From: Pontederia crassipes
Lineage: Eukaryota > Streptophyta > Magnoliopsida > Commelinales > Pontederiaceae
Assembly (NCBI GenBank): GCA_030549335.1
Contig: JAUKPH010000018.1
Span: forward strand, 4,836,001-4,900,000
Length of the DNA: 64,000 nt
Reading direction: 5' to 3'
Shown here one piece after another: positions 14,860 through 49,318 of the stretch (positions are counted from its first letter, which is position 1; every line of letters begins with the position of its first letter). The notes below the pieces were generated by a model. The model saw nothing but the letters and a program-made list of their open reading frames with translations. It did not search any database and was not told where the DNA came from. Both the position numbers and the translations under genes were made by a program.

Positions 14860-15215
14860 CCACCACGGCCAACGTCATGAGGTGGGTATTAATAGTCCCA
14901 CTGTGATGATATCATAGCATTGCATAGAGAGGGGCAGGTAGCTAAGCTAAGGAGACAGCGAACCTACTGGTCTTTGATGACCATGGTTCCTGGGGTACAG
15001 GTCTTCTCCCACCTGTGTCTCGAAGAAGGGTGATGATGCATTGACACACTCATTCTCCCAAAGAACATAGTATTGAGTCAGAAGGACATGTAGTTAACTT
15101 AGGTGACAGTGAACCTACATGTTCTTAAATGATTGTTCCTGGGGTGCATGTCCTCTCCCACCTGCATTTCGAAAAGGGTGATGTATTGACACACCCCTTC
15201 CCCAAAGTGGGCACA
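14860..15215. repeat. Two direct repeats of about 152 bp inside family A LTR
   Basis: A block with the words GACAGCGAACCTAC, GTTCCTGGGGTACAGG, TCTCCCACCTG and AAGGGTGATG starts near 14939 and recurs near 15091 with about 80 percent identity. A homologous pair with a period of 156 bp lies at 28556-28850 in the inverted family A copy. Confidence 0.8.
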
Positions 15216-15289
15216 CTGGCTTTACAGACTTACAGATGCACCTCTGTCATCCCAACCTAATAAAGTTGAGCTCGCATAGGACAACGAAC

Positions 15290-15775
15290 TTCAAGGACTG
15301 CATAGTAATGTAAAAAATGTAGTATAACTCATGGTAAGGTATGTAAAGTAAAGCACGGTAAAGCATGGTAAAGTAAAGTATTGTACAGTAAAGTATAGTA
15401 TGGTAAAATACAATAATGCATAGCAAAGTATTGTATGGCAAAGTATAGGAAAGTATGACAAAGTAATGTATGGCAAAGTATAGAGTATGGTATAGTAAAG
15501 ACAAAGCAAAGTTACAGAAGAGAATAGAGTATGGATATAATAAAGAATAAGGTATGAACATAATGATTCATTACCTTATGTAAAAGTATAGCAAAGCATG
15601 ACAAAGTAAAGCATAGTAACGTAAAGTACAGTAAGCATGACAAAGTAAAGTATAGCAAAGCATTGCATTGTAAAGTATAGCGAAGCATGATAATGTATGG
15701 CATAGTACCGAGTATGACATAGTAAAGACATGTGAAGTTACAAAAGAGATTACCTGTTCATGGTAAAGTATGTTA
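15290..15775. repeat. Low-complexity AAAGTA/AAAGCATG tract in family A LTR
   Basis: Degenerate short repeats of AAAGTATAG, CAAAGTAAAG and AAAGCATGAC. They create Tyr/Leu-rich open frames on the minus strand that are not genes. A similar, shorter tract lies at 28190-28450 on the opposite strand in the second family A copy. Confidence 0.75.
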
Positions 15776-19659: not shown

Positions 19660-21720
19660 TTGGTACTACACTCTATTGGTGCCTTATCCTCAGTACCCTT
19701 CCAGCCTTCACTCTTGATTTATGAAATATATTGGCAACGACCACGATACCTCTATACACTATGATCCTTGGCTGCTCTCCAACCCGTTCTTCCATATGTC
19801 GACCTACACTAACATCAACTCTCCTATAATTCATGACCCTATTGTTGCCCTCCAACGCTTCGGTGTTTGCCAACACTTGTTCTCTCTCACTTTTGGTCCC
19901 AAGCTTTGTATGCAAATCAAAGTCATGTATGTCCTTCAGTCGCCGCTGATGATGTGTGGATTTGGTTTCTGTTTCCCAGGGCAAGGACTCGGGCAAGGCC
20001 TCGGCCAAAGCCATATACAGATTTCTCGGTTAGTTTGCCTCGTCGCTATTCTCGACTGGACGGCGGCCTTGATGCACAGTGTGGCAAATTCTGGTCACCC
20101 ATAGGCTCTACCTTTTCCTTTGGAAACTCCTCCACATGCGCCTCCCCACAAAAGATCAAATTGCCCTCCTTTGTCCTTCCATTGACCTCGCGTGCCTCTT
20201 GTGTAGGCTTGGGTTCTCAAGGACTCTGACTCGGGTTCTCAAGGGCTTCGACCTTGACCCCCCACCCGCCCAACAGCTCCTCTCTATTTTTGCTTATTGA
20301 TTATGGGGCTTATGCAATCTCCAGAATGGCACACACTTCTGCACCAAGCGCGCAACTGTTGAGGCTGTTTGGCTTTAGGCACCCGCTAAGTTTGATGATT
20401 ATTTCTCTGTCCATGCACCTAAGGCACCCCGTTCCATTACATGTTTTCCTATTATACGTACTAGATCTTCTTTTTGTCTCTCCTCTGATTCCCACCCACT
20501 CCATCCCTCGCCCCACCCCTCATGGTGCCCTATGGACCCAATGGGACCCTTTACCTCCCCCGATGTTCTTTGCACACCGATGGCTCCTTTTTAGAACCAT
20601 ACGAAATTGGGAGTGCTACTTTTCTCCTCCGTTCTCATATCGATTGCAGGTGTCGTTCCCTGCTCTGTGTGGTCTGCCCTTGAGGTTGAGACTTGAGCAC
20701 TCCTTCTCGGCCTACAACATTGCCTTTCGCAGTGCATCTCTCTGGTGGTCATCCGCACCCGATTCCAACTTGCTAGCTCATAACATTACTTCTGTCGTTG
20801 ATGAACCTTGGTGTTGCCCTTACTCACATCCCCTTATACACCATAGATCATTGTTAGAGGGAAGAAAATACTACTAACTATTTGGCCTCTCTTGCAAGAA
20901 CCTTGCAAAGCTTCACTGTTTGGCATGACAACCCCCTCCCAGGCTCATCCATTTTTTGTATTCAACCCTTAATTATCTAATGTTACTGGAAAAAATTACA
21001 CCAAATGCCTTCCAACTTTGATGTATGCTCAGTGATGCCCTCCAACTTCACTTTGTAACACGAATGCCCTCCATCTTTTAACTCGTTTCACCCGATGCTC
21101 TCCTTGCCTATGATCGACGGTCTCCCGATCACGAAGCTGATGTGGCACTATCTCTCTCCTCTCCACGGACATTGCAATGATGTGACAATATTAAAAATAA
21201 TAAAAAACAAAAAATGCCACGTCATGCATAGGGGCTATGCGTCAGAGTCCCCACCGGAGATGGGGTCGACCCCCTGCGAGCTCTCGCCAGAGCTCGCGGG
21301 AGGGAGGGGCGCCCCCAGCCCACGCACGCAGGCAGAGGGGGCGAGCTCGCAGGGGGGCGATCCCCCCCCCCCCCTTTTGCCTGCGTGCGTCACCGGGGTC
21401 GCCCTCCTACGGGGGCTCCGACACGTAGCCCCTTTGCGTGATGTAGCAGTTTTTGTTTTTTTATTTTTTTCTAATTTTTTAATATTGCCACGTCATTGTA
21501 ATGTCAATGTGGATAGGAGAGAGTCAGCACCGTCAGCTCCGTGACCGGGAGACCGCCGATCGTAGATAAGGAGGGCATCGAGTGAAATGAGTTAAAACAT
21601 GGAGGTCATTCATATTACAAAGTGAAGTTGGAGGGCATCATTGAGCAAACATCAAAGTTGGAGGTATTTCGTGTAATATTTCCAATGTTGCTGCATCCTT
21701 TAATAAAAAATAAAGAAACG
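19660..21720 (+). mobile_element. 5'-truncated LINE copy (zf-RVT and RNase H end), interrupted by a MULE-like element
   Basis: Only the 3' third of a LINE remains. MKYIGNDHDTSIHYDPW near 19721-19770 aligns with the KKYIGNGCTTHVTNDPW region of the LINE at 1.7-7.9 kb. A zf-RVT-like piece (LYLFLWKLLHMRLPTKDQIALLCP) lies at about 20106-20175, and an RNase H start (HTDGSFLEP) at about 20570-20600 in a different frame. Stops and frameshifts are frequent. The element resumes after the foldback insertion at 21693 and ends in TTTAATAAAAAATAAAG (about 21698-21717), the A-rich tail. Confidence 0.82.
20979..21692. mobile_element. Non-autonomous foldback element, MULE-like, 696 bp with 9-bp TSD
   Basis: Long terminal inverted repeats: the left arm (20988 to about 21190) starts GGAAAAAATTACACC and matches the reverse complement of the right arm (about 21480-21683, ending GGTATTTCGTGTAATATTTCC) over roughly 190 bp with few mismatches. 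Flanks are AATGTTACT (20979-20987) and AATGTTGCT (21684-21692), a 9-bp TSD with one mismatch; long inverted repeats with a 9-bp TSD are the hallmark of Mutator-like elements. The centre (21235-21435) is very GC-rich, with a C14 run, and itself partly self-complementary. There is no transposase, so it depends on another element for movement. Confidence 0.9.
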
Positions 21721-27667: not shown

Positions 27668-28555
27668 TATAATGTAACGCCCTCAAAATCGGCCCTCCTG
27701 CCACAAAGGAAGTCGGGTTGACCATGAGGGCGCTACACTGCCTACTACATTATTGACTTTAATATGACCTTGACCATTCAACAGTTTGTATACATTGCAT
27801 CAAATATAATAATAAAATAACCAAGATATTATTGCGGAAGAGTGAACGTCGAAATACCAAAAGGCACTACTAATCAATACAGTTCATAATAAAGGAAGGA
27901 ATAACCACGACCTCGAGTAAGTCCAACATTTGAACAGATGTTCGATAAAAAAGATAGCATAAAGTCTTTTTAAAGTAATGACCAATGATCAGACTAATGC
28001 AATAATAGAACTGAATGCTTTTAGAATTGTAAGTCATGTGCAACATTCTCCAAGCCTTATGTTCTCCAGCTCCTCATCAAAGCAGAGTTCTCACCTGCAA
28101 AATCTCAATGTAAAACGCCCAGTACAATAGAAGCATAGACGATAAAATGTAATCAATGATGTTTGAATCATACATGGATAAGCGAGGAGTAACATGCTTT
28201 GAGTTTCCATACTTTGATTGAAATAGATAATAAGGCATGCTTCATCATATCAATATATGTACTCTATTCTTTACCATGATTGTGCTTTATTTTTACTATG
28301 CCTTGCCTTGTACTTTATTGGTCAATGCATTATCTTTACCATGCCATACTCTGTTCTTTACTATATCATGATCTGTACTTGAGTATACTATACTTTACTG
28401 TACATTACTTTATTGAGTTGCGCTACGTCTTTTACATTACTATGTCGTCCTTTGAGTTAGTTGTCCTATGCGAGTTCGACTTTATTAGGTTGAGATGTCA
28501 GAGGTGTCTCTGCGAGTCTGTAAAGCCAAAATGCCCATGATAGGGAAGGTGAAAT

Positions 28556-28850
28556 GCCAATGCATACCCTTTTCGGAATACAGGTGGGAGAGGACTTGTA
28601 TTCTAGGAACAGTGGTCATTTAAGGACCTATAGGTTCACTGTCTCCTCAGCTAAGCTGCATGTCCATCCGACACTATATTATGAAATTATGCCTTGTTTG
28701 AGGAAAGGGTGTGTCGCATCATCCTTTTTCAAAACACAGGTGGGAGAGGACCTGAATTACAGGAGCAGTGGTCATCAAAGAACATGTAGGTTCGCTGTCT
28801 CCTCAGCTTGGCTACCTGCCCCTCACTATACAATGTTATGATCTTTGTTC
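28556..28850. repeat. Direct repeat pair, period 156 bp, in family A LTR
   Basis: The phrase CAGGTGGGAGAGGAC starts at 28581 and recurs at 28737, with flanking homology that includes GCAGTGGTCAT and GTCTCCTCAGC. This is the same repeat pair as at 14860-15215, on the other strand. Confidence 0.8.
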
Positions 28851-29465: not shown

Positions 29466-30088
29466 ATGATCTATTCTTGCGATGAAACAGAGCCGCCGAT
29501 CATCTTCTTCATTTTCGACGGCCCTCCGGTCGTCAAATCACGACGATAACAATATATAAAATGAAGCTAAGGCATTCATGATCATAATGGAATCATCAAA
29601 CACATCAATCGATCAACGCTTTATCATCTAAAGGGATTTAACGACTATAGTACCTCTTTTCGTTGTTGTGGTTCGTCGGAGTCGCTGTCGTCACGTTTCT
29701 TTGCTTCCGATCGTTCTTGGCCGACGAGGGGATGCGGCAGGCCTTCACGAACGTCAAAGGAAGGTTGCCGGACAACGAACGCGTGTCAGATCATCACATC
29801 GTCGGTCGCCCATTTGCCTACGCGTCAATTGTCGGTGGAGAAGAAAGAGGAGGAGCGGAGGGGCGGCGGCCGATCGAGCATCGAAGGGGCGCGAGGGCTT
29901 CCCTTCGCGTCCCTTTTATAGCCTCGGCCGGCCCAGTCCGAGACGCAATCGGGGGAGGGGATCTTCCCCCGGTCCACGTTTCTTTTTGTTTCATTTTTTC
30001 AATTTCGTTTGAATTCTTTCCATTTTTTGTAAATGAGTTTGATTTTCAAATTCTTTCCTTGTTTGAAGTTATGAGGCGTTACATATAA

Positions 30089-33000
30089 TCAAAGTATTTG
30101 ATTTCTGTACATAAATTAAGACAATTTCTTTTTGCAGTGAGGTGATTTTGATTGACACAAATTAATTAAAATAATAACGATACCAACTTTATCTGATGAA
30201 GAAGTTCTTTTTTTTTCTCGTAGAAAAATCTCTTTTACCTTTATTTTGTTTCAGAAAAATTAAAATATTACCATCTGCTGAGTTTTCCATTATAACTGGA
30301 GAGCGAAAGCGTGAAGTATGATTGATTTATTTATTTTTTCTCATGAATTCTGAACTTGGTGGAGGAGTAAGTTTGGTGCTTTTTCATTTTTCTTTGGCAT
30401 GAAAACAGGATCGGCGACGCTTACAAGAATGTAAGAAAGAGGAAATCATACATGTAAAAAAAAAAGGGTTACGATATCGTGAAGCGTCATGTTGCATTAA
30501 ATTTTACGTGACATCACCGATGCCACTCCGTGTCACCTTTTTATTTTTGGTCCTCGTAAAAATTGTAAACAGGTGGCTCCTTTTTTTTTCTCCATATTTT
30601 AACGGTGAACAAAGCAAAATGGCCGAAGGGCAAAATGCGACGTTTTTGTGAGTGTATACATTACATTTAGCGACGTGATTAGTTTTATAATTGAGAGTGT
30701 TAACTAAAGATGATTAAGATAATCAGATAGTGGAGTTATATTTTAGAGTCGCTAGATGTTAATAATTTTAAATTTAATTTCTAGAATTGATTAATTTTAT
30801 ATATACTACTGTTGTCTAAATATCAGTGTTTTTTAAATAAAAGATTATTAAATAATGATTTAAATTATGGGTGAATTAGGTACATAGTTCAAGGTCAAAA
30901 GAAGAGTTGAAAAAGAAAATCCAAAACAATGTAACTTTTTTTTTTGGTACAAAAAACAGAGATCAAGTACTAATGAATCGAAAGTCAAAGCCACAAATGA
31001 TTTGGTTGTTGAAAAAAAAGTGTGGAACACTCATAAGTCATACGTACGTTGCCAATTAATGCACCATATGCAATCAAAATAGGAAGAGTGTTGCTATATC
31101 CTCCTAAAAATTAATCTAATCATCCTCTTAGATACAATGGCATGCATCATAAATGTCCAATAATAATATGATCATGAGTGCAGTAAGATGCAGTTCTTGA
31201 TATTACTTTTTCAAAACGCTTTAAACTTCGGTCCGTACGATTTTATCAAAATACGTCACACTTAGACAAAGAACATACTTTCATATATATCTAATATTTT
31301 TTCCGTGACTTATACATGTGGAACTAATTTCAGAAGCACGCTTCGACTATGGATTGCACGCTGTTAGACGCCTCCCGGACCCGCCAAATCGGGTGATCCC
31401 AAACCCCCATCGTTTTGTTTCTCAATTAGTGGGTTGACTTTTCGGTGTTGATATGTTTTCTGACCTCGACACGTACTTTGACGCATGCACAGTGGGTTCA
31501 GCGGGCGTCAGATTAAAGCGGCAGGCGGCAGCAACTAGCGTGCGCCGTTAGCCACACTAACCTACGCCATAGCAGTAATATATCGACCAGTGGCACGGCG
31601 ACACGAAAGAGACCGACGTGGCAAGCCTTCCGTTTGTTTCGACCCTTTATTTCGACCGTTTATTTCTTTGGGAAAGTTTAACGTCGGATGCTTGTTTTCA
31701 TGGCAGATCGGACGGTCTGAATTATTGCGATCTCTGCCATCGAAGGCCCTTGACAATATTCTCCATGTCCTCGTTAGTCGTGCCCTCTTTTTATGATACG
31801 CAAAAGCTTTTTTAATCATTAATAATGTTTATTTGTTAGAATAGGTGTGGTATTTATATAGGGCATTTCACTTCAAAAAATAATAATAATATTATTATAT
31901 TTTTACTATTGTATTATTATTATTATTATTATGTGAATAATTTTTATTTAATAAAATAGCGTAAATAACAATATTTCGGAGCCATCCAATTTAAATTTGA
32001 GTGGAGTCCCTTTTTCTCTTTAATTCTAAAATTTTAAAATAAAAATAACTTAAGATACAACAAAAGTTTTATATTAAACGCACTGTAACAAAACATAAAA
32101 TATTTGTATTTATATTAATATTACTAGCATTAAGATTTCTGGGTTATAAGACATGTTAGGATTTTTGTAAAAAGATATTATACATGAAAAATTTAAGACG
32201 ACATAAAATTTTATTAGATAAAAAATAAAAGAGAATTACAAATTAATTTGCTTTATATTCAGATAGTTATGGAGTTTATATAGACATTTTTCTTATAAAT
32301 AATAGGAATTACAAATCGACTATGACCGTGATTAATTTCTCAAAATTAAGACATCTATATCATAATAAAAAAATAAATTAAGTCTGAATCACAAACATAA
32401 TTCACCATAATATTTTAGCCCCAAAAACTCCGCCTCCCATGCCCTAATGAAGGGATCCCCTTGAAATGATCGGGTAGCGAGACTTTCGTAGTGCGATGAT
32501 GCTTTTTATTTTGGACGTCTTGAGAATCGAATGAATTTTTAGTTATGATAAGATTTAAAGCATTATTAACAAAAAAATCTGACGGATTCCTAATTTCCTT
32601 TAACCCTGATCTCATCCTTTTCTAAACCTTTTCTATCCACCTCATCATTATTGTTATTATCACTATATTAATTATTCAAAAATGAAACTATAAACTTTTT
32701 TCAATAACCGATTGCGAGTATTTGGAAAGTCATACTGAACACACTGATTATATATTAAAAATTCGATTCACCGTCGAGTTTAACTAATTCGAACAAATCG
32801 TTGTTCGTTTCATAGCCGATGGTAGATAAAAATTGAACAAAAACTTTTGGCATTAACGTGAATCTCTAATTTGAAAATTTTTACTTGGAGAAGTCGACCT
32901 CAACTCCTGTTCGTAAATTATAAAAACTATGCCCACCTGATCTCCACGAAAGGGACGTACCTTAAACATGAAAAACAATTAATTAGGAATCGGTAAAATT

Positions 33001-33205
33001 AACTCGCATAAAAAGTTGAATATGGTACAAAACCATTAAATTGCAAAGGAACAAAACAAAAACGTCACTTGGTTCATATTACTCGTCCTTCCGCTCCATA
33101 ACGTCGGAAGGCAATTATGTGCCTACAATTAATTAAATTCCACTCCCCCCCCCCGTAGACACTGTGGAACAAGACAATGCCCGCATTTAATGAAACACGC
33201 GCAGA

Positions 33206-33242
<37 letters not shown>

Positions 33243-33860
33243 AAAAGGATAAAATTCTTTATCCAACATAACTCTTTATCTTCGGACTTCGACATATTGA
33301 TTTTCTATCGGAATTTTAAAATTTATATTGTCATATCCAAACGGGTGCATAATAATAATGCATATAATAGTCATCAATTTTGACTCATTATAATCACGAA
33401 AGATTCGAAATATTTTATCAATTGAGTGGACCATTTATTTTTTAATCCATATATGGAAAAAATAAACATATTCAATACTTTTCATATTACACGCGTTAAA
33501 TGGTTTTACATGTATTTTCTTTATATATCTTTCATCAACTAATTTTTTGCATTTGAATGCTGTGTTTCTAAAAGTCAAATTCCATTTATTATCTCATATC
33601 TTATTCTTCACAAATTTGAATGCTAATAACAACTCTTATTATTTTCCAAGTGTTATTATAAGTTTATATTTATATTTTCTTAATTTTTGTAAATAAATAC
33701 TTCTTTTAGTGTACATGCACTACGAATTTTGTCTTGTAATTGTCAAGAAGAGAACAATTTTAGAATAATTTTTCTTTAAAAAACGTTTTGACAGTTCTTT
33801 TTTCAGTAAATAAATTAACAATAAATAAATACCAGTTGAATATGTAGGAAATTAATATCA
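30089..33860. other. Intergenic DNA upstream of the SFH gene
   Basis: No coding region recognised. Features are simple repeats: an ATT run at about 31912-31932, a C run at about 33145-33154, and adjoining (AT)n and (AG)n runs at about 33206-33243. A moderately GC-rich patch at 31330-31800 yields short open frames without any known motif. Confidence 0.5.
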
Positions 33861-34274
33861 GATGTGTGTGCGTGTGTGAGAGAGAGTGAAGAGAGAGAGA
33901 GAGAGAGAGGAGAGAGAAAGAGAGCCGGGGGGAGTGAAAGGGTGTGCTCAGCAGCAGCAGCTGCTGCGGCAGAGCATTTTGTTTCGTTTTGCTCCAACCT
34001 TCGAGCTTCTTCCTCCTCCCTCCTCCCAAATCAAACCCCGACGAGAAGAAGCGACGCAAAAGGAAAGCGAAGGGCAAAAACTTTGCAGCAGATTAGAAGG
34101 GTATATATATTGATATTAATATATATAGACAGAGAGATTGGAAGGAGGCGGAGGAGAAGAAGCGATCCGAATTCTACGAGTTCCGAAGTGTAAACGCCGC
34201 TGCCGCGTTGATATCCAGTGTCTCGTTCTTCTATATCACTGGCGATGCACCACTCTTGAAATTTTATTTTCCAG
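33861..34274 (+). promoter_or_regulatory. Probable 5' leader exon and GA-rich promoter-proximal tract of the SFH gene
   Basis: A (GT)n/(GA)n tract at 33861-33925 precedes a purine- and GC-rich stretch typical of a plant 5' leader. A good splice donor, CCAG|GTAAAA, lies at 34274/34275, which would give a long leader intron up to the first coding exon near 35100. A five-codon-length upstream ORF (ATG at 34245, stop ending 34259) sits just before the donor and could dampen translation. The transcription start itself is not determined. Confidence 0.5.
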
Positions 34275-35112
34275 GTAAAAGAGAAAGAGGTGCTGAAACT
34301 GTGCTGCATGGATTCGTTTCTTGCCATTAATGCCTTTATATTCAGATTCGACGTCCTTTTCTTGGTTGGTTTTGGAAAAAGATGTCGGCTTTGCGATCTT
34401 TTCTTGGTGTCGTTTTTTTTTTCTGTCATTGTTTTCTCCTCACCGGAGGAGTGAAGTCTGCGACTGTTTTTGATGGAATTTTATCGGGGGTTTCAGAGTC
34501 TCCAGAAACGGATCATCCGAAGGTTCTCAGTAAATGCGGACAACCGTAGACATTGTCTCTCTCCTCGACTTTTCCGTCCTTCTTTCTAGATCTGATAATA
34601 TTTGCAACTCCAACAGTTTTGCATCTTTGTTTCCTAAAAACAAAAAGATTAAATTTTCGTCCCAATGTTTGTTGTAGTTAGCCTTTTGATCTGGTAAATA
34701 TGGTGTCTTGATTTTCTTGTGAACTCAATATTGAAATTTTGACGCGAAATGGGATCTTTTTTTCCTCTGGTTGAACGTATGGCCCGTGCAGTTCATGGTA
34801 GAAGAGCTCTCTATGAATCTACAGGGCCTTTTGGGAGTCCTTCGGTGATGTGAGTTATATTTTCCAGTGTCATTTTTCTCTTAGATTTTATAATGGATGC
34901 AGTCCTTAATATTCTTTCTGCTTTTATTCTTCATGTTGGGTTTCTCACCAAAATGGAAATTACTTGTAACTTCAGTTGCAGCCAATCTGATCTGAAGCTA
35001 AAGTTCTACAAAAAACAAAAAAATCTTTTATCACACAATGTCAGATATTATTTGAGCGATACATATCTTATAGAGTTTGCGACCAATATGAGTTTCCTCA
35101 ACCCTTGGAGTT

Positions 35113-38100
35113 ATGCATTTTGCTACTGCAGCCTATCATTCAGACTGTCATGAAGGTTCAGTCAGTTGCGATGAGAGGAAGGAGAGGAGATCTGATGTGG
35201 AGAACTCGGAAGACGAGAGGAGGAGAACTAGAATCGGGTCTCTGAAGAAGAAAGCGCTGAACGCTTCCACCAAGTTCACCCACTCTCTCAAGAAAAAGGG
35301 GAAAGAAGAGAGTTGATTACAGGTTCCCCTCTGTTTCCATCGAGGATGTAAGGGATGCTGAAGAGGAGCGGGCAGTTTATGCCTTCCGGCAAGACCTCAT
35401 CGCCAGGGATTTGTTGCCTGATAAACATGATGACTACCACACCTTACTAAGGTCAGCGTCATAAAAAAGTTCAATTTGATTGTCCACCTCTTATGCAGTC
35501 ATTTTGTGGTTCTACTCGTAATTTCCTCTTCCTTATATGAGATGGTGTTTTTTCAAATTTATCTGTTGCAGATTCCTTAAGGCTAGGAAATTTGATTTTG
35601 AGAAGACCATGCAGATGTGGGTCGAGATGCTTCGCTGCAGAAAAGAATTTGGAACCGACTCAATTTTGGAGGTGAGAACTTCATGAGATTGCATTAGCTC
35701 TTTGGAATGCACCGAATAGTTTTTAGTGATAAGGTGGGTACTCAAATTTGGCAGTTACAAAAAAAAATGTGCACAGTATGGAAATTGTAGTTAGATTATT
35801 GGGAGAAAAGTTTTGCTCAGGTCAACTTCCTCAGCTTGAATGTTCTGAAACGTGGTATTTAACATTCTGTATTTCAGAAGACTGTATGCTGATGTACATA
35901 CATTGAGAACTTCTTGGATTGTCTAAAATCTTGAAATTAGTTCTTCAAAATGTTGCTCTTTACACGTGTTATCCTACCGGGGCCATGCTGATTTCATTGA
36001 CAAGCTCCTTTATTATATTGTATCATCTATTATATCTTTCCATTAACCCAGTATCATAGTACTGGGCTCTTAGGCAAAAAAGACAAAACATCAAGGAAAA
36101 GAAAGGATCGAGCACAACCTGTTCTTTGATCAGTATACAATAATTGGAGCAAGTTGTCTACATTTACATGTTGAGAAATCATGCCACTCAATATTTTTCT
36201 AGGGTTTCCACAATTCAAAATCATCCATATTATATTTTTGAACTTCAGGACTTTGAATTTGAAGAGCTGGAAGAAGTTTTGCTTTATTATCCTCATGGAT
36301 ACCATGGAGTTGACAAAGATGGCAGACCTGTCTATATTGAGAGGCTTGGGAAAGTTGAACCAAATAAACTTATGCAGATAACAACGGTAGACTGCTACTT
36401 AAAATATCATGTTCAAGAATTTGAGAGGGCCCTGCAAGAGAAATTTCCATCGTGCTCTATTGCTGCCAAAAGACGTATTGGTTCAACAACTACCATATTG
36501 GATGTTCATGGTGTGGTAGGTTTCAGTTTTTAATTTGCTGAATGTCAGAATATAATATATTCTTGCTATTTGTGTGGTACTATTCTTAAAATGCAGGGCT
36601 TGAAGAACTTCAGCAAGACAGCAAGGGACTTGTTGCTTAACATGCAAAAAATAGACGGTGATTACTATCCTGAGGTAACACTATCATATTCTTTCAATAA
36701 GCTCTCATAGGCTGTCCGTATCATTGTTTTGACTTCTCCTTTTTTGCAGACATTGCATCAAATGTTCATAGTCAATGCTGGCCCTGGTTTCAAACTTCTG
36801 TGGAATAGTGTAAAAGGATTCCTTGACCCCAAAACTACTTCAAAGATACATGTAGGATCTATATCTCTGAAAGAATATGGTTCTGTCGCATCTTTTCTAC
36901 TTTAGATAATTGGAGCACTAATGCTGCATGCAGGTACTTGGAACCAAATATCAAGCCAAACTTCTTGAAGCAATTGACTCATGGTTAGTATCTTCTCTCA
37001 CTCTTCACTCTGGTCCTTTAGTGCTCTCCAAATGTTCATTGTGAATTTTCTATGTTCTTTCAGTCAACTTCCTGAGTTCTTTGGTGGCTCGTGTACATGC
37101 AATGATGAGGGAGGGTGTCTTAGGTCCAACAAAGGACCGTGGAATGATCCGGTGATTAAGAAGGTAAAATCTCATGCCTTGAAATAATTTGTTGACTAGT
37201 TTAATCATAACCTTAATATTGTTGTCTTAATTGAAAATAACTAACATTTTAGTTCTACCGTAGCTTGTGCACAGTGTTGAACCAACATCAATGAGGGAAA
37301 CTAGCCATACATCTGAGGGGGAACACAAGAGCACCTCTACTCTCAGACTACGCCGACTGAAGGCAATAATCTTCAAGCTGAAATTATTTCTGGTTAACTC
37401 CGTGTACTGCTTTTCTACTTCTAAAGATTTTTTTATCTCATGTTAGTGGCAAGGAAAACACAGTGATCCATCAACTGCTGAGTCAGGATCAGAAGATGAT
37501 GATCTTGGTTCTCCAGTCATATCACGGAATTCCAACCGTGCATGTTTGACTCCAGTTCGTGAAGAAGTGAGTTTAATCATCTGTATGTTATATTCAAATT
37601 GTGATAAGTATTCCTTTATTTAAACTGTTTTGGTATGTTAGAGCATGCAGTAAGATGCAGGAAGCTTGTGCATATCGAGCTTGCCATCCAAACAGGACAC
37701 AGTCTTTAATAACGTCTATTCATACAAAAAAGAATATTTCTGTAATCTAGCATGCAGAATAGATTTATTGTACTTCTTTTCAAGTTTGCATTGGATAATA
37801 TTCAGCTCCTCTTCTAGTACATTATAGTAAGAAATGTTTCTGTCATCTCCAAAAGCAGGTTTTGCAATATCTCATACATGATACAATATTTCTGATACCT
37901 AACATGAACTGTAGATTTTCTCTTTTTTTTTTCCTGTAAGTTATTTGCAAAGTTCCCCAAGAGCTAAAATGCATTCATGAAATAATTTTTAGTTATGATT
38001 TAACCATAATTTTGAGCCTGCATCCTCAAAAAAAGATTTTTTTTGAGCCTGCAAGTTTTTTTAAAAAATACCAGCTTCGTTTATTCTCAGTTCTCAGTTT

Positions 38101-40009
38101 GTTTTCTTTGACTAAGGCTAAGGATACCCAGTGGATCTCTTTCTATACAATCTTATTAGCTTTTTCTCTTATGCGCTTTGTTTCTAAGTTACCCCTCAAA
38201 AAACCTTTTAGTCCTGTCCTGTAAGCTCCTTTCTCAGACAATCCCCACATCTTATACAAGGACATAGCATGCTGTTCTAGCGGGCAACTGAATTGTTTAA
38301 TTTGTATAACATGCAGTCTTAGCAAGCAGCCACATTGTTTAATTTGCATGTCAAATCAGTAGAATCTATAGCTTATTACAGCTGCGAGGATCAATTTGTA
38401 TGGAGGACAAACTTGTAGACTGTGGTCGAGGGGGAGCTGGATCTGTGGTGAAGATATTGAAAGAAGGGAAAAATGATGGTCGTGGCTCCATGACCCAGAC
38501 ATCAGATTCTCTAGGTACTTGACTCACATAAGCTAGTTAATTACATTGTTTGCTCTTGGTGAGCGATGGCTGACGTCCTTTCTGAAGCTAATCAATATTC
38601 TTTCATTATAAATCACATGAAAGTTTCGTGCTTGTTTTTTTGCATCGTTTACATCAGAAAGCAATTACTAAGAGTTTATATATGACTCAGCTACGAGGTC
38701 AGACCTATTGCTGTTTGTGTCCAAGCCAAGTTACTAAGAGTTTCTTTATGTGATCTCACATAAAAGTTATTTGTTGATTGTGCTTTGCCTTCGGTTTTAT
38801 AACTATGGTATTGATGATGTGATTCCAATTGCCATTTTTATTGGTTCAGGTAACTTGGTTGCTGATAGGTTCAATCATGTCAAGAATGATGTAGAACAAG
38901 GCAAGTTGGAATATTTCACGAGAGCGTTAGTAGCACTTTTGGTAAAAGTGCTACCACTCTTCCGTTTCTTCCACACTAGACAACAGAGGCGGTTGGAGGA
39001 TATTCATCCATTGGATACGTTAGGTGTATCACATGGTGGGCAGTTAAATACAGAAGCTACGAATGAGGACTACATAAAAAACTTTGCAGAGCGTCTTCAA
39101 AAGCTTGAGGTCCTAATGGCTGAGCTTAGCAGTAAACCTGCTGAGATCCCTCGGGAGAAAGAGCATGTGATCCAGGAATCGATCGACAGGATTAAGTCCG
39201 TGGAGTTTGACCTTCATAAGACAAATAAAGTAAGTGAAATAATATTAACTTTTCGGATCTGTTGAAGATACAATAATATTGAGGATTTTTGGAGAGCCAA
39301 TTAAGTGTTGATTATGTGATTTTTGAAATACATCAGGTTCAAAGTGCTCTATATAAGTTTAGGGGTAAGTCAAACAAGCAATAACATTGATTTTGGAGAA
39401 CCTACCGAGTGTTTCATGGAAATTTTTTGAGATCCATGAGGTTCCCACTGCTCTATATAAGTGTATATAAGTAGCCTCAACCATTGATTTCTTTGCCGAT
39501 CTCCTTGACTATGTTGTGATCCATGTCCTGGTGTCCACACATGTTCTGATATTATGACATAATGTTGTAGTTCTCATCCTTCTCATCAAAATCTCTGATA
39601 CGTAGCATTACTTGTCATTGCCCACTGCAAAGTATCTTAATAAACCAATTGGATGAGATATTTGAGGTTTTTGAATCCACACCATTTTTTCAGGAAGTTC
39701 CATATAATAACTAATGGGGTATCCTATTTTACCTTATATTATATCCTCGACTTAGAGTTAGAATAGTCCTCGATTTTCTTGCTGCATGCTTGACCCTTGA
39801 AATTTTACTTTCTCAGCTATTGCAAGCAACTATGATGAAGCAAATGGAAATCGAAGCAGCTTTAGAAGATCTAAAAGACTCCAGTGTCAGGGTTAGTTGA
39901 AAATCCATTTCACTTGAATTGTTAGTTCACATGCTCGGCACAATGTTGTGTTAAGGGACTGATGGCTTCTGTTTCTTTGGTGCAACTGCAGAGGAGGAAG
40001 TTTTGTTGA
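35113..40009 (+). CDS. SFH: SEC14-like phosphatidylinositol/phosphatidylcholine transfer protein (SFH type), spliced, with apparent frameshift
   Basis: Sec14-nodulin protein that presents phosphatidylinositol to lipid kinases and organises polarised membrane growth. Coding exons inferred from splice sites and homology: 35113-35451, 35572-35671, 36249-36515, 36597-36674, 36750-36851, 36934-36983, 37064-37163, 37264-37362, 37447-37566, 38382-38514, 38850-39229, 39817-39891, 39992-40009. They encode about 619 residues, normal for the family. The basic N-terminus ([18 protein letters not shown]) is followed by the CRAL-TRIO N part ([21 protein letters not shown]), the Sec14 core ([74 protein letters not shown]), then a variable linker, a C-terminal coiled region and a basic end RRKFC. 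Exon 1 shows a +1 frameshift at about 35290-35312. The start ATG at 35113 is provisional; it could lie in an upstream exon. Confidence 0.92.
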
Positions 40010-41470
40010 TATTCAGAGCGAACAATTGTACATGGATAAAAGATGTGCCTGCCATCCTTGTCTGAGTTGAGAAGGGTGTCGAAAAGTAGTTACTGCTATA
40101 TCTTTTCTCTTCGTTTTAGGTTTTTGTTTTAAGTTTTCCCTTTGACTCATGATCACATGGTTGCGATACAAACTGTCATGGGTGACTTACAGTGGGCACT
40201 CAAGCAGAATCGAGAAGGTTTTCTTAGGAGCATTAGGGGCCTAACAAGGAAATCTAATGTCAGCGTCAGGGCTACATTGCGTTTCTTTTCTTATGCTTTT
40301 TGCAATGCTGCTGGCTGCCAGCAGCTGCCTTGTTTAACTATAGCCTTTTGTCTTCCATACGCCGTTTCGCCTGAGGCCATCTTGTATAGGTCTGTTTGAA
40401 TTGTATAGAAAACCACCAGCTAGCACTTGCATCTGGAACTTGTGCTGCACAACCACAGGATAAAGCACCAATATTCAGAATCTAGAAAGGTGAATTTTCT
40501 TTTTGGTAGCATTTTGACAGCAAAATGGATGTGTTCCTTGTACCCTGTCAAAACTTCTCAATTCAAAAAAGGGATTTTAACACTCTACTGGCAGTGCAGA
40601 AGTTTCTTTTCCATTCCTTTTGCTTTGTTTCTTCTTTTTTTTATGTACATGAGCATATGTGAATATGTTGCTAGTATTTTTTGTTTATGTTCCAAAGCTA
40701 AAGACTTGGTGAAAACAAGCCAGATATGCAATGGAGGGGTATGTGTATGAACATATAAGCATATAAGCATATAAACTAGATCTTATCCAATAGTTCATAT
40801 ATACAATTTTTTCCCATTTCAATATGGCAAAAAGCTTAAAAATTTGCACAGCACATGAAAAAAAAATCAATTTCAATATGTGTATGTGGAGACAAGATCA
40901 AAAGTTTCTTCTTTTCTGAAATTTGAAACTGAGAGTAATAGCAATGCCATAAAAAAATCGAAGTCATGGGACCCTTTTTCTTTCTTTTTTTGTTTGTTGG
41001 GAAGCAGTTCCAATCTCAACAGCTGTATCTTATGATGTAGCGTTTGATAGACATACATAACGTCCTCTAAGACAGATAACAGTGTATGATTTAATATAAA
41101 CTCATCAATTGAAACAATGATTATTTACCTAGGTAGTCTTATTTTTTATTAAAGAAAAATAAATACTTAAAATATTTTGTAACTATAAAAATTAAAAAAA
41201 ACATGGACCATCTTTTCCAAGTTTGGACAGGATTTATTGTTTTAGTTTGAAGGTTGAATGCTAATAATTCAGAACACCGTTCCCTTTTGACTCCAACACA
41301 TACCATCAATTGCAGCTTAAATTTTTTTTTTTGTCAATTTCATGATGCCGCCGCGAGAAAAAACAATCTGTCAAAACCGCGTTCTTTTTTGGTTTCATTA
41401 TTCCTCCTGTTGTGTCGTGCGCACGCATTTTGAATTGGCCGTGTCAAGTGTCGACGACCCGACTCGGCCG
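40010..41470. other. SFH 3' UTR and short intergenic region before LLG1
   Basis: The 3' UTR of the SFH gene probably covers 40010 to about 40650. The following stretch is AT-rich and carries the promoter side of the next gene. Open frames on both strands here (for example 40142-40399 and 40427-40750) are without known motifs. Confidence 0.55.
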
Positions 41471-41608: not shown

Positions 41609-44600
41609 ATGGGTTCGATTCGTAAAAATTTCTCCTTGTCAGCCATTCTGTTCGTTGGTTTGATCGGCTTGGTGGCCGGTTCCAGTTTCATCTCAGGTGG
41701 GTTTCTGGAGGCGACCATTTTTTTGGATTCTGTTTGGGGCTTTCGTTTCGAGAGTCTTTGAGCTGATGTGCTTGTCTTATTGTCGATTAGATCATGCCTT
41801 GGGGGCGCACGGATCTGGCGGAAGGAGTTTGCTGCAGGCCAAAACCAGTAAGATTGCTTTGTTCTTTTCTTTGTATTTCTTTCCATTTCGTTCTATCGAG
41901 GAATTGTGGACGATTTGCTCTTCCTGTGGTTCTTTGCTTTTTGGTATCTGCTGCTTGTTTACCTCTAAAGCAATCCCTCCAAAAAAAAAAAAGATTTAAT
42001 TCTTGGGGTGCGTTAGAATTCATGGAATGCAACATGATAAATCACTCTGGATTACAGAAAAATTGGATCTTGTTGACAGAATCATTTAAGTTTGTCCCCA
42101 TATCATGGAAGAAACATTGAACTGGAAGAAAAAAATATGATGAGAATTGAGGACCATTAGGTGGAAAATGAGGAAGGATGAACATGGTCAAAGAGTTGGG
42201 TAGTTTGGGCAGTCTTGGTCACCTGGGTGAGATCAGCCTGCACCCTCCAAGTTTAGGAAGAGCAGTCCAGCTCTATATCCAGTCCGATCTACTTCTAGCT
42301 TAGGAACATGGGAGGGATGCTCAGTTTTCGCTATATTAAACTATTAAGTTGCATAATTAGTTTTGAAATAAAAAGAACTAATTTAACTTAAAGATTGTAT
42401 TTCAACAGTTGGTGCTTGCCTCACCATAAGTAAAGTTTACAGAGAGAGATTGAAAATTAAATCAAGATAGATGTTATTAGTAGTAAAAATGTAAAGATCT
42501 TTAACACAATGATATTTGGTTACTTGTCCATTTGAGAGAAGAAATCTCTATAATATATAATAGCTTCTATGGAGTGGACCAAACTCCAAATATAATAGCA
42601 TAACTTTTCAAAGGCCGAGATTAAAGTTAGAATCCATCCATGTATGAATAACTTGAATGGTCAGATATCTATAACTACAACAAAGCTAACAATGGTGAAC
42701 ATGAACTAATGGAAGGTGTAAGTTATAAGATCCACTATTTTCTTAAACCATTAATTAATACAAGAAGTGGTATCTTATCAGATTATGAGAATTGAATAGA
42801 AGTGTGTGTGTGTGAAGGGAAGGAGGGAGGAGGTGGGGTGGGGAGAGATTTAAAAAACGTGAGATATCTTTTTGGTCTAGACAAGAAAAGTATGGACAAC
42901 AACATCATGCAATGTAGAGTAACAGCCAAAATGGATGCCAAAAATAAAACATTAAAATCAAAAGCATTTCCTTTGGCTTTAGATTATAAAGATGGACAAT
43001 AAGAATTCTACCTAAGTTTAAAATGGGCCAAGATTCTTAAAAACATACTTTATCTTTTATGATATATTTTTTTTTGAGAGAGCAAAGGATGATTACCATT
43101 TGTAATCATTCATTTTATTAAAGGTTGCTATATTACAAAAATGTACAGACAAACTTAGTCCTTCATCCACTCACCCACTATCTTCTCAGCCATTGCTACA
43201 ATGTTCTCAACATATAACCTCTCACCCCTAAAAACACAAACGTTGCATTGGATCCAAATAACCTATAGGAAAGCAAAAGGGGCCACCCGATGCCTCCTTG
43301 TACAGTACACTTGGACTCCATTTTGGCTCCCACATCTTGTTCGGAAGGAGCTCCAAAACTGGGTTAATCTTTGAAGGGGTAGACCTTGAGGATCCAAATC
43401 TTTGCCACACCTCTCTTGCCGTCACGCATTGAAAGAAAATGTGATCAATGTCCTCATCCGCTGCACCACAAAATACATAGGTTGTATTCACCTCGAGAAC
43501 CCATCTTTCCCTGTAGCATCATGTTGGAAGTCTTCCACATCGGAGCAGTCACGCAAAAATTCGTATTCGTTGAGGAATCCGTAGCCTCCAAATCCTGATA
43601 AAGTCTGTCCGCAAGTCGGTATCCTCTAGTTGACTGTCGTTAGTGAGAACTGTGTATACTTTAGTGACAGAAAATTGACAAGATGACCACATCCACGAGT
43701 CCTTCCTAGAGCTACTAGGCTCTATGCCATCCAACTGCCCCATGAGAGTGAGGAGTTCCTCCACCCTCTGGTCTGAAAGAATAGCATTGAATTTTGGAGT
43801 CCACACACAATTAGATAGCAGATTTCCTGACCTAAATTTGCAGCTGAATGCATCCTACCCTTTTCATACGGATTAGCGAGATAATTGTTTAACTATTTAG
43901 CACATAAAAGTTAGTTTATTATCGAATGGGAAGTTTGCTTATAAATTAAATAAAAAATACTAATCACAAATGTTAAAAATAAGCTAATAAGGTGGAAAAT
44001 AAAATAAATGAACTTAACTATCAAACGGTACAACTTGTGTCTTTGTGTTCACGTGCATGTGCACGTTCGTGCGATTGTATATTCTCCACTCAAATTTCTG
44101 CCAAATTAAGTTCGACTAATTGTTTTTTTTTGCAACTCCGCCTATGTTTTATAGCCGGTCCCAAGCCCGGATAAAGGAGGAGGGTTGTGTTAGGCCTCGA
44201 CAGCCAGCGTAAACCCCTGTCGAATCTCATGAACATGGATCAACGAAGCGTCGTATGATCCATGTAGCCGACCCCACCTAGTGGGATAAGGCTTTGTTGT
44301 TGTTGTTGTAATTGTTTGTTTTTGCATTTTATAATTCAAGACATCTAGATTCTCCTTTCATTGCTAGAGGCAACAAAAAGGATTTTGGGCATATTTCTTG
44401 AGCTTCACAAAGCTTTTCTTATATAAAGATTCTTAAGTGGTCATGTTTCAAATTTTTACAAGTTAATGATCCACAATAAATAAGTATCAGGCACTGTTGC
44501 TTCATGTTTTTTTATATCAACACTTGTTTCATGATACTCTCCTTTATCATCATCCTAATTTCTTTCGCATCTCCTTGACAACCATCCTGTTCATCCTACA

Positions 44601-47600
44601 AAAGGATTTACACACCTCTACATTTTTATTGTGCAGTTACTTTATGGCTTCATCTAATTCTTTTCTGATTATTTTTCTTCCTCTCATGATTCCTCTTTTT
44701 TTTGTATAAGAAGCGAGTGAAATACAAAAAAGTAACCAAAAATCACGATCACGGCTCTCACACAAGGTCAATCTCTAGCCCCTTACATTTCGTATTTCAT
44801 GTCAAGCAAATAAGACTTTCATTCAATACTTGCAAAAAAAAATTTAAATACGAGGGGTGAGCATCAATAGTAATGGAAATCCATAAATCTTAAAAGTCAA
44901 AAATCAAATCTTTTTGCGTGAATCAATGAAACTCAAACAGAAATGGTGCATATGTATGCCATGCATGCAAGAAAGGTTGTTTTCATGCTCCACCGTCTTA
45001 CACGGTCATAATCTATGGGGTCATGCATGCGTACTCGCCCTATTTCATGCCAAGAGCTATGACATTTACTCCTTAGGCCCTATTTCATCCCAAGAGTTAA
45101 ATGCTATTATCTCCCCTCCAGGCCCTATTTCATGCCAAGGGATATCTTTACTAAGTTGCCTATCGGCTAATAATTTCGCTCCTTAGGCCCTATTTCATGC
45201 CAAGAGTTATAACATCCGCTCCTCAGGTCCTATTTCATGCCAAGAGCATTACCGCCCCAAACGTTCATCTCGGTGTTGATCAGGCATCCGAGGTAGAACA
45301 TGCAAAAATCATTTTTGATGTGCGATGCATGAATGCAATGTAGCACATATTTAACTTGATCATAATCCAACCGATTTCAAATAATCCAATAAACTCATAC
45401 ATAAAATCGACATCATACTTCATATCATAGAGAATTCATCATTTAGCAAGGCAACATATCGAGCATCGGGGCATATGGAAACATTCATACATTCAAAACT
45501 TTACGCATATCAAGCCAATAAAATCCACTCCATATCAGCATGGAAAAAAAACATATAATTGCCCGAATGCCATCGTCACTATCTTTATGGATAAACCCAC
45601 TCACCTTGGATTACGTCGGGTCTCTACTACCTCCCACCCGAATCCGATCAAAAGAGAGAAAGACCTATTACATCCATTTAAACTTTATTTCAGAACATAA
45701 CCTTATCATTTAAAACATTTATCACTTCTAGGTATCATTTATCTTTTAGTTCATTAATCACTTCATAATAATCCTTTTTAAAGACATCTTGGTACCTAGA
45801 ATTAAAATTTATAAATCTTTTACCTAAGTTCATAAGTAACGCATTATAACACCCATATAATTAATTTCATAAGGGAAACTGAATTGCCAACCAATAGCAC
45901 CCTACTCAAACCCCCAACGGACAGCCACCTATCATATCCAATTAATTATATAATAATTTGAATTAGACACTATAACCAATTTTTATCAATTATAAAATTA
46001 AATCTTATAAATAGTTTCGGCTATCAATCATCCTTACCACAACAATGAAACCACACTCTCGAAACCAAAGATGCGCCCGTCGAAACGTCAAACACAATCA
46101 CCGAACGCCTTTTCATCAATAATAAAATATTATTATTTGAAATCAGTTCACATAACTGCAATTAAATATAATATGCACATTTCCCTTTCCCTTACCAACA
46201 AAATCTGAGGACGAATCGTTGGAAATGTCGAAAACGTTGGAGGACGGTCGAAAATCGAAATCAACGAACCCACAAGTAATTTTTGATTAATTTTCATACG
46301 GACAACAACCTAATACATTTCTCCCTCATGGAAGCACCTACCAGACGTGGTGAGATTGGCCGAAGCCCCTTCAGACTCGCCAAAAAATGTCGCCGGATAG
46401 GTCAGCGGAAAACCCCAAACTTGGCCACCTACATGATTGGGAGAACAAGCACATTTACAACCCTTGAAATGAACCTAATCGACCTGAGGATGATGCACAA
46501 CTCATTAGGAGAAACATCGGCGCGAATCGGAGCCGCAACGGGTCGCTGTAGAACTCCCCCATTTCTCGCGTTCGGCACTCATTGCATCGTCTATAGTGGG
46601 CCGATCTTCTCCTAACATATGTCAAAATGTTCGTCTCGGCGTCCTCTTTCCATCGGTATGTCTCGTGTAAAAAACGGTGGCCAGACGATGGAGAACGAGT
46701 GGCCGGAAGTGAGGGCGGCTAGGGCGTCTCTGTGCATAGGGGTGAACGGGCGTGAACAGTGAAGGGTGGGGAGAGGAAGAAGATGTCTTCTCTCTCCACC
46801 TTTCCACGTATTTTTTTGCCAAAAGACCAAAACACCCCTCCTTTTAAAAGTATTTACATTTTTATTTTTTTATTGTAGGACGTTACATTAGCACATAAAA
46901 GTTAGTTTATTATCGAATGGGAAGTTGACGTATAAATTAAATAAAAAAATACTAATCACAAATGTTAAAAGTAAGCTAATAAGGTGGAAAATGAAACAAA
47001 CGGACTCAACTATCAAATGGTACAATTTGTGTGTCTTTGTGTGCGTGCGCATGTGCGCGTTCGTGTGTTCGCATATTCTCCACTCAAATTTGTGCCAAAT
47101 TAAGATTGACTAATTGTTTGTTTTTGCATTTTATAATTCAAGACATCTAGATTCTCCTTTCATTGCTAGAGGCAACGAAAAAGGATTTTGGGCATATTTC
47201 TTGAGCTTCACAAAGCTTTTCTTATATAAAGATTCTTAAGTGGTCATGTTTCAAATTTTTACAAGTTGATGATCCACAGTAAATAAGTATCAGGCCCTGC
47301 TGCTTCACGTTTTTTATATCAACACTTGTTTCATGATACTCTCCTTTATCATCATCCTAATTTCTTTCGCATCTCCTTGACAACCATCGTGTTCATCCTA
47401 CAAAAGGATTTTCACACCTCTACATTTTTATTGTGCAGTTACTTTATGGCTTCATCCTCTCCTAATTCTTTCTGATTATTTTTCTTCCTCTCATGATTCC
47501 TCTTTTTTTTTGTCGTTTAAAAAAAAATGATTCCTCTTTTTTCTCTTCTCAAATCTTCTAAATGATCTTCTGCTGTTGTCATCTGTTTGCTACCCTATCA

Positions 47601-48293
47601 TCATTGATGCATTTGTTACTGTAATACTATTGCTTTTTATAAGGCTGTTATATGTTTTTTTATCACTATTTATTGTTGCAACTAATTTTGATTCTGATTA
47701 GTGCATAAAGATAGTATAAAGAATATGTGTTATGGTTGCTATTGGTTTCCAACATCATCTTGAATTTGGTTATTACTTCAGGAGCTGTTTCCTGTGGAAT
47801 AAATAGGGACCTCTTAAGTTATAGGGGATATAAAGCATCATCTCTGCTTGAAATATTTGATACATTGATTACATATGAGGGTTCAGAATTGGACATTGCT
47901 TTTCATTCCTAATTCCCTGCAATGATGCCAGGTTGCCCTGTTAACTTCGAGTTTGCTAACTACACCATCATCACATCCCAGTGCAAGGGTCCCAAATACC
48001 CAGCTAAAGAATGCTGTGCTGCTTTCAAGCAATTCGCATGCCCTTATGCTGATGAACTAAATGACACAACAAATGACTGCGCAACGACCATGTTCAGTTA
48101 CATCAACCTCAATGGACACTACCCGCCAGGCCTTTTCGCCAGTGAATGCCGTGAAAGCAAGGAAGGACTTGCATGCCCAGCTGATTCTCCTCAGTCTGGG
48201 AATGACAGTTCAGCTGCTGCTCTCATAAATCAGAAACTCATCTCCCTGATCGTTCCCATTTGTGCGACAACTTTAGTGTTCTTCTCTTCTTGA
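41609..48293 (+). CDS. LLG1: LORELEI-like GPI-anchored protein
   Basis: Small secreted, GPI-anchored co-receptor and chaperone for FERONIA-type receptor kinases at the plasma membrane, binding RALF peptides. Three exons: 41609-41696, 41791-41847, 47932-48293; junction codons (G+AT, A+GT) join in frame, giving 168 residues, the usual family length. Residues 1-22 form a signal peptide (MGSIRKNF then a Leu/Val/Ile-rich core). The mature domain starts at the CPVNFEF motif and has eight cysteines, including the CC pair in KECC, with the conserved NYTIITSQCKGPKYP and FSYINLNGHYPPGLF. A Ser-rich omega-site region (about SGNDSSAAA) and hydrophobic tail to the end signal GPI attachment. No broken residue is seen. 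Which paralogue (LRE, LLG1, LLG2 or LLG3) it matches cannot be settled here. Intron 2 is 6084 bp and repeat-filled. Confidence 0.95.
43066..43860 (-). mobile_element. LINE fragment (zf-RVT region) in LLG1 intron 2
   Basis: Read on the minus strand, 43549-43806 gives IWRLRIPQRIRIF and upstream matter, and 43228-43491 gives CGAADEDIDHIFFQCVTAREVWQRF: the paired halves of the zf-RVT zinc-binding region of plant LINE-type ORF2. A T-run at 43067-43075 on the plus strand is the A tail, so this is a 5'-truncated LINE inserted antisense to the gene. A frameshift separates the two halves. Confidence 0.82.
43897..44705 (+). repeat. Upstream copy of duplicated intron block (carries the SINE)
   Basis: This block is about 93-95 percent identical to 46888-47513 once the SINE and its extra target-site copy are removed (about 617 against 626 bp). 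It begins TTAGCACATAAAAGTTAG and ends at TCTTTTTTTTTGT. Minor differences include GAAGTTTGCTTAT against GAAGTTGACGTAT. The copy nearer exon 3 continues into intron sequence without a break, so it is the original right flank. Confidence 0.9.
44118..44326 (+). mobile_element. Au-type SINE, full length, with 17-bp TSD
   Basis: A short tRNA-derived non-autonomous retroelement at 44135-44309, with the phrases CCCGGATAAAGGAGGAGGG, TAGCCGACCCCACCTAGTGGG and a terminal TTG repeat, known marks of Au SINEs. The flanks AATTGTTTTTTTTTGCA (44118-44134) and AATTGTTTGTTTTTGCA (44310-44326) form a target-site duplication with one mismatch. The sister block at 46888 holds just one copy of that site and no SINE. 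Confidence 0.93.
44706..46887 (-). mobile_element. Truncated LTR fragment in LLG1 intron 2
   Basis: The right end GGACGTTACA (to 46887) and the preceding text (CCAAAAGACCAAAACACCCC, about 46818-46837) resemble, on the minus strand, the 5' end of Tekay/Del-like LTRs such as the solo LTR at 51328. The left end lacks a matching TG or CA terminus and is joined directly to the upstream intron block at 44705/44706. There is no coding interior. I interpret it as an LTR cut by the event that duplicated the flanking block. Confidence 0.6.
45038..45246. repeat. Five iterons CCCTATTTCATGCCAAGAG in the truncated LTR
   Basis: Nearly identical words start at 45038, 45078, 45123, 45188 and 45227 (variants CATCCC, CAAGGG and TCCTATTT), with spacings of about 40, 45, 65 and 40 bp. 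They are in direct orientation and separated by non-repeated sequence. Confidence 0.85.
46888..47513 (+). repeat. Downstream copy of duplicated intron block (SINE-free)
   Basis: Homologue of 43897-44705 without the SINE. At 47108-47129 it reads GACTAATTGTTTGTTTTTGCA with a single target-site copy, an unoccupied insertion site. It is followed without interruption by LLG1 intron sequence that leads to exon 3. Confidence 0.9.
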
Positions 48294-48600
48294 AGCACCG
48301 CTGCATTTTTGAATTCTCCAGTCATACTCTGTCATTTCACGTCTTTGATATTTTGGAGAACTTTCTCACGGTGTAAAGAGTATCTAGGTCCCCGGATTCA
48401 GTTGTATGTATTTTCATCTGTATATTATTTGAGGTGGACATGTTGCTTTTTATGCTGTAATTTATATAATGTTTAACTGTTGTTATCTGTTGCTGGAATA
48501 CACGGCATGGGAAGTGTGGAAATATCATTGTGTAATTCTTCACGTTCTGAAGAGCTGCTTATTTTTATTATTATTTTGAGAAAAAAAAGATGTGAGTCAG
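48294..48600 (+). other. Probable LLG1 3' UTR
   Basis: AT-rich sequence after the stop, with possible near-upstream poly(A) elements such as TTTATATAATGTTTAA around 48460-48475. The cleavage site is not determinable. Confidence 0.5.
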
Positions 48601-49318
48601 GTGCTCACGCTCATTTTTTATTCATTATAAAAAATTGTATCTATTATAAAATATTTTATAACCTCGCTCGCTCATTCGTCAAATTATTAGCTGGATTAGA
48701 ATGTTGTCGAGATAGCACTTTTCATATTGCCTATAAAAACACAATTGCTATGATTTGTTCTCTCTTTTGTCATCGAAAAGCTCACACCTGCAGCTGAGTA
48801 GGAAGCGAGCCATGATGAGACATCTGTCAGCAGAAAAATGATTGAGAGGATGATGTTTTTGGGTTCAAAGAGGAAAGCCTTTTCCTGTTTAATATGAATA
48901 TGTACTGAGCTAAGATGTACTATTAGGCTATTGGCGTAAACAGATTAATTTATGAAAACTGTATTTATATCTTTTATTACAATATTCAATTTGTTTATCT
49001 CTTATTACAATATTCAATTTGTTTATTTATGTTATTAGTTTAGTTTATCAAATAGCTTAACTGCTTAAGCCACCTGTTGGCATCCCTTAAAAAATGCCTT
49101 TGTAACTCCAAATATCAGTGTTAGTGGTTCTAAAAATATTTGTACTGTGATGGGAAAATAGTTTTGTAGATAGTGATTAACATTTTAAGTAAGTCAAATA
49201 GTTAGTGATTAGTATTGGCGCTTTGAAAAGTTGTTTCATAAGCATGTATGAAGAGAAGGTAAAGAGGGGAAAGGGAAATGATGAGAAGGGAATGTAGGAG
49301 AATGAAGGTGAATATTTA
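48601..49318. other. Intergenic DNA
   Basis: No gene recognised. A 23-bp direct repeat (TCTTTTATTACAATATTCAA and beyond) occurs twice at about 48970-49022. Confidence 0.45.

Follow-up and report, generated by a model that had tools for sequence, protein, structure and literature searches.

A complete solo LTR between two copies of a 0.6-kb intron block, one of them carrying a SINE, in an LLG1-like gene of Pontederia crassipes

Intron 2 of an LLG1-like gene of Pontederia crassipes carries two direct copies of a 0.6-kb block of host DNA, here called B1 and B2, with an LTR of a dispersed Ty3-like family between them and a SINE in the upstream copy, the site of which is empty in the downstream copy. 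In our analysis, the block may have been duplicated by the aberrant, one-ended integration of an LTR element, after which LTR-LTR recombination would have left a solo LTR, the SINE arriving later; we regard this course of events as about evenly balanced between right and wrong. The components are all known processes, and the unusual point is the presence around an LTR of a host duplication of 0.6 kb instead of 5 bp. The window, i.e., the whole stretch of 64,000 nucleotides analyzed, is part of contig C18 of a 1.13-Gb genome assembled in 43 contigs, and a paralogue of the gene is present on C17. The features of the locus are as follows:

41609..41696, plus strand: exon 1 of the LLG1/LORELEI-like GPI-anchored protein gene, from the in-frame joined translation
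41791..41847, plus strand: exon 2, from the in-frame joined translation and the GT/AG borders
41848..47931, plus strand: intron 2, which holds B1, the solo LTR and B2
43070..43830, minus strand: LINE fragment 5' of B1, from tblastn, the query being the other LINE of the window (E 6e-10); also present in C17
43897..44702, plus strand: B1, the upstream block copy, with the SINE inside, from BLAST and alignments
44118..44134, plus strand: left target-site duplication of the SINE, with one mismatch, from the alignment
44135..44309, plus strand: SINE of 175 bp with a TTG-repeat tail, from genomic copies with common ends
44310..44326, plus strand: right target-site duplication of the SINE, with the same sequence as the empty B2 site, from the alignment
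44703..46887, minus strand: solo LTR of 2185 bp (plus strand TGTATAAG...GTTACA), belonging to a dispersed Ty3-like LTR retrotransposon, from genome matches and the neighbours of its relatives
46888..47510, plus strand: B2, the downstream block copy, without the SINE, from BLAST and alignments
47111..47128, plus strand: empty SINE target site in B2, TAATTGTTTGTTTTTGCA, from the alignment
47932..48293, plus strand: exon 3, including the stop codon, from the LLG1/LLG2 matches and the joined translation

Since the flanking exons (41609-41696, 41791-41847, and 47932-48293) join to give an in-frame protein, and since it is the last of them that matches LLG1, the duplicated block lies entirely within an intron; no consequence for the LLG1-like gene is demonstrated. 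The product of exon 3 matched Arabidopsis LLG1 (6a5d_A, E 1e-46) and LLG2 (6a5e_C, E 3e-35). The LINE fragment, the left limit of which is approximate and was set by eye (the protein homology spans 43405-43713), is 93.7% identical to its C17 counterpart; beside the latter, about 700 bp (L025:6809-7505) are missing from the window, having been either gained by C17 or lost from C18. The window also contains a large foldback at 20991-21681, where 690 bp show a 75% match to their own reverse complement, and an inverted pair of about 0.5 kb at 14911-15421 and 28325-28842, 76% identical and with shorter direct repeats inside. Elsewhere in the genome, LLG1-like exon matches are clustered at C19:638511-755890, some of them with stop codons inside the matched stretch.

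When the region 43000-49000 was compared with the window by BLAST, positions 43897-44134 matched 46888-47128 (88.8%, E 8e-85) and positions 44309-44703 matched 47111-47510 (96.0%, E 0). The window contains five pairs of direct repeats of 80 bp or more; in the other four, the copies are no more than about 50 bp apart. Over 613 aligned sites, B1 and B2 differ by 30 or 31 substitutions, according to the target-site duplication retained, and by six indels; the substitutions are unevenly distributed, 23/221 being located to the left of the SINE and 7/392 to the right. The preliminary description of this DNA had proposed two copies of one intron block, with the filled and the empty site of a SINE side by side, and both points are confirmed: each copy is about 0.6 kb long and lies in intron 2, and the SINE with its target-site duplications is present in B1, while B2 has a single site. 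No remnant of the SINE, which it had been suggested to look for in B2, was found in the alignments of the two copies, the target copy in B2 being uninterrupted. The block limits needed a slight correction, B2 ending at about 47510 rather than 47513 and B1 at 44702 rather than 44705, where the next base belongs to the LTR with one to three bases of ambiguity. What had been missed was the nature of the interval between the copies, which corresponds to one complete LTR. The right edge of B2 contains ATGATTCCTCTTTTTT in two places, at a distance of 34 bp (47493-47542), and so does C17: this repeat is a small, older local duplication.

A genome search with the interval gave 62 matches, drawn from the best 40 of 1588 candidates; among the 61 matches other than the interval itself, 12 start at query positions 1-9 and 13 end at position 2185. 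The ends TG...CA (minus strand TGTAAC...TTATACA) are common to the members of the family. Almost all the LTR starts inspected in the relatives (11/12) adjoin the same internal-type sequence, which ends in variants of CAGTTAATAATT, and two LTR ends run into a second common sequence starting with variants of ATTACAATACCC; at one LTR end (C9:38.9 Mb), the last bases were unaligned. A reading frame located between two LTRs on C6 (L027) shows gag homology (PF03732, E 3e-7; Ty3_capsid, E 7e-7). These two LTRs, which belong to the same family and are separated by about 2.5 kb (C6:64222867-64229516), form a tandem LTR arrangement, in which the outer start of the left LTR again follows internal-type sequence. 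Since neither of the internal neighbours of the family was found beside the LTR in the window, on either side, the interval 44703-46887 is a solo LTR, and its sequence corresponds to exactly one complete LTR of this Ty3-like family in the minus orientation. Treating B1-LTR-B2 as a retrotransposon having the blocks as its own LTRs was rejected, because the blocks lack TG...CA ends and the interval itself has LTR relatives.

No 5-bp target-site duplication was found at the flanks of the LTR, which read TTTTT to the left and TTAGC to the right (4-6 bp being the general norm for LTR elements), and the edges of the duplicated block coincide exactly with both LTR ends. The element is an LTR by its sequence, but it does not stem from a normal, undisturbed insertion, and the fact that a complete LTR lacks its own 5-bp duplication suggests that the duplication of the block is likely to be a by-product of the arrival of the LTR element. 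Tandem duplications being common (PMC7971508), an ordinary duplication might have come first and the LTR have been inserted later exactly at the junction; this order of events seems very improbable, however, given that a 5-bp duplication would then be expected, whereas TTTTT and TTAGC do not match, and that the exact junction is an improbable target.

When the genome was searched with B2 and the following intron sequence, one place was found besides the copies in the window: C17:15386067-15387088 (93% over query positions 1-1042). This paralogue, which also matches the exon 1-2 region and exon 3 (the encoded protein is 97% identical), carries the block once, with an empty SINE site and no LTR, and the block is flanked there by the sequence preceding B1 and the sequence following B2. 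Since the block is contiguous with both flanks in the absence of the SINE and the LTR, the single-copy order of C17 (preceding intron-B-following intron) is likely to be ancestral, and that of C18 (preceding intron-B1-LTR-B2-following intron, with the SINE in B1) would be derived. We infer from similar pairs on C1/C2 and C5/C6 that C17 and C18 are a whole-genome-duplication pair; beyond the gene, C17 15370500-15376501 and window positions 30000-40763 gave no match at E 1e-8. Intron 2 of the C17 paralogue contains an insertion of about 5.7 kb absent from the window (L025:182-5917), which shows reverse transcriptase homology (RVT_1, E 5e-13).

The three copies are similarly distant from each other. 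In the left half, B1 differs from C17 at 12/198 sites and B2 at 16/200, and in the right half, the corresponding values are 7/394 and 9/398. Over 590 compared sites, private changes number nine in B1, 14 in B2 and nine in C17, all three copies being different at one site. The ratio between the age of the duplication and that of the C18/C17 split is 1.13 (rough interval 0.77-1.49), so that these three-branch counts cannot order the two events, which appear to be of about the same age. In principle, the duplication could therefore be older than the split and one copy have been lost in C17: the nearly equal distances between B1, B2 and C17 and the age ratio of 1.13 (0.77-1.49) are in keeping with this history. 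A recombinant origin of C17 from B1 and B2 was rejected, as the sites siding with B1 or with B2 alternate, as judged by eye, and no single crossover accounts for them.

The same distances bear on the possibility, raised in the preliminary description, that the duplication is an artefact of an assembly joining two haplotypes. Alleles should be closer to each other than B1 and B2, which have diverged (23/221 and 7/392) as much from each other as from C17; the copies can also be told apart by distinct indels and by the SINE, and the genome is assembled in 43 contigs. An artefact of this kind can thus hardly be responsible.

From left to right, the divergence between B1 and B2 falls abruptly at the SINE: the best change-point lies 3 bp from it, and its likelihood was reached in 0/2000 permutations. 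We considered as the main explanation that the SINE had acted as a barrier to gene conversion, and rejected it, since the left half has also evolved faster in comparison with C17 (Fisher p 5e-6 for B1-B2, 0.011 for B1-C17, and 0.0018 for B2-C17) and the indels, two to the left and four to the right of the SINE, do not follow the step. The same contrast was obtained against an unlinked paralogue, and most of the step is explained by faster substitution to the left of the SINE, where transitions account for 17 of the 23 B1-B2 differences. Some gene conversion may have occurred in addition, the contrast between the halves being strongest for B1-B2. Without a third copy, a divergence step at a mobile element can pass for a conversion boundary.

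SINE insertion is expected to produce target-site duplications of about 5-20 bp, and those flanking the element in B1 are 17 bp long with one mismatch, the right copy being identical to the single site of B2. The element, a putative Au SINE, as it was named in the preliminary description, belongs to a dispersed family with common ends and target-site duplications. Among the best 40 of 2137 candidates, 37 of the 41 genomic matches listed (its own included) span exactly query positions 1-175; the best 40 of full size, again with its own, have identities of 98-100%. Twenty copies were aligned, a selected set in that they rank highest against the query: 13 agree with the majority throughout, and 11, the window copy included, have a target-site duplication at the threshold used. 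The window copy differs from the majority at two columns, one of which is common to three other copies, leaving one private change in 175 bp. A minus-strand piece at window positions 10538-10620 matches the 3' part of the SINE with 87% identity.

The order of the two events, which had been left undecided, can be narrowed: as judged from the sequences, the SINE most likely arrived after the duplication of the block. The stronger argument is that the site is empty in both B2 and C17, so that an earlier insertion followed by duplication on the same chromosome would call for a precise loss. In addition, dozens of genomic copies are almost identical to the SINE, whereas B1, B2 and C17 are branches of about equal age; the private changes (1/175 bp in the SINE versus 9/590 sites on the B1 branch) point in the same direction, these being small numbers. 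The SINE could predate the duplication in the event that the latter brought together two different haplotypes.

As regards the LTR, the course of events that we consider to be evenly balanced would be the following. The retrotransposon cDNA would have been joined to the host by a single end, at the left border of the block, which corresponds to the present LTR-B2 junction, while its other 3' end would have missed its partner 5 bp away and paired instead at the T-run/TGT at the right edge of the block. From there, it would have primed repair synthesis back through the block, the gap being closed by recombination with the preceding intron; the host block would thereby have been duplicated across the element, instead of the usual 5 bp. 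Recombination between the two LTRs of the element would have given the solo LTR, and a SINE of a young family would have been inserted into B1 much later. A host duplication of hundreds of bp with the ends of the element at the block edges is indeed what aberrant one-ended integration should leave. TGT is common to the LTR start and to the host sequence at the right edge of B2, and no bases are shared at the LTR-B2 junction. When HIV integrates aberrantly, the integrase joining one end and host repair the other, the most common outcome is reported to be a duplication of host DNA, hundreds or thousands of bp in length, and the aberrant end usually shows a short homology (PMC5041404). Aberrant retroviral ends are often truncated, however (PMC5041404), whereas both LTR ends are intact here. 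The 3-bp shared sequence, which is reduced to TG, i.e., 2 bp, in C17, is weak and may be due to chance, and the duplication is about as old as the C18/C17 split, so that C17 could have lost a copy.

The main rival explanation starts from two members of this family inserted at opposite edges of the block, each on its own homologue; unequal crossing-over between them would give block-LTR-block without a matching target-site duplication. It predicts exactly the structure observed and directly yields a solo LTR; a tandem arrangement of the same family is present on C6, and LTR recombination between sister or homologous chromosomes has been proposed for plant tandem LTR elements (PMC11899658). It nevertheless calls for two insertions of the same family within 0.6 kb of each other, in two haplotypes, with crossing-over as a further step, and C17 has neither insertion; we consider it possible but unlikely. 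The third explanation, still less probable, is patch-type repair: the filling-in of a staggered double-strand break would have duplicated the block, an LTR copy or a free LTR cDNA being captured between the ends. Tandem duplications by patch repair are common in rice, where some perfect ones exceed 1 kb and reach up to 4.9 kb (PMC7971508), and these patch-type events resemble the present case in being direct local duplications of similar size; they differ from it in that a whole LTR lies here between the copies, and a captured filler need not carry two precise LTR ends such as those seen in the window.

One-ended integration, with one end joined by the integrase and the other by host repair synthesis, may have occurred in the germline of a plant, with an LTR retrotransposon and in the absence of any drug, a 0.6-kb block replacing the 5-bp duplication; we put this forward tentatively, as somewhat more doubtful than not. 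If it is true and frequent, LTR elements without target-site duplications would be an overlooked origin of local duplications on the kilobase scale in plant genes, and the locus suggests screening the genome for LTR elements that lack the 5-bp duplication but lie between direct repeats hundreds of bp long. A search of the open-licence literature with a few terms returned no plant example of an LTR flanked by a host duplication hundreds of bp long.

Among the known systems, the aberrant HIV integrations obtained with integrase inhibitors or resistant mutants (PMC5041404) resemble the present locus in that an LTR element lies within a direct host duplication of hundreds of bp, not 5, with a short shared sequence at one junction. 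The window locus differs from them in that it is an ancient event in a plant germline, with a solo LTR and both ends intact, and an impaired integrase is not implied. The Au SINEs of plants, as presented for wheat introns in PMC5787218, are likewise short, intronic, flanked by target-site duplications and represented by many near-identical copies; the likeness of the element in B1 to them lies in these general features. The locus as a whole preserves the states before and after two events, namely, the formation of an LTR within a 0.6-kb host duplication, for which the paralogue gives the single-copy state, and the later arrival of a SINE, for which there are two empty sites. Related empty sites are targets of a mobile element of which filled and empty copies exist in duplicated DNA. 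Here too, one genome shows the target with and without the element, but the filled site and one empty site lie 2.8 kb apart in the same intron, and the second empty site is in a paralogous gene.
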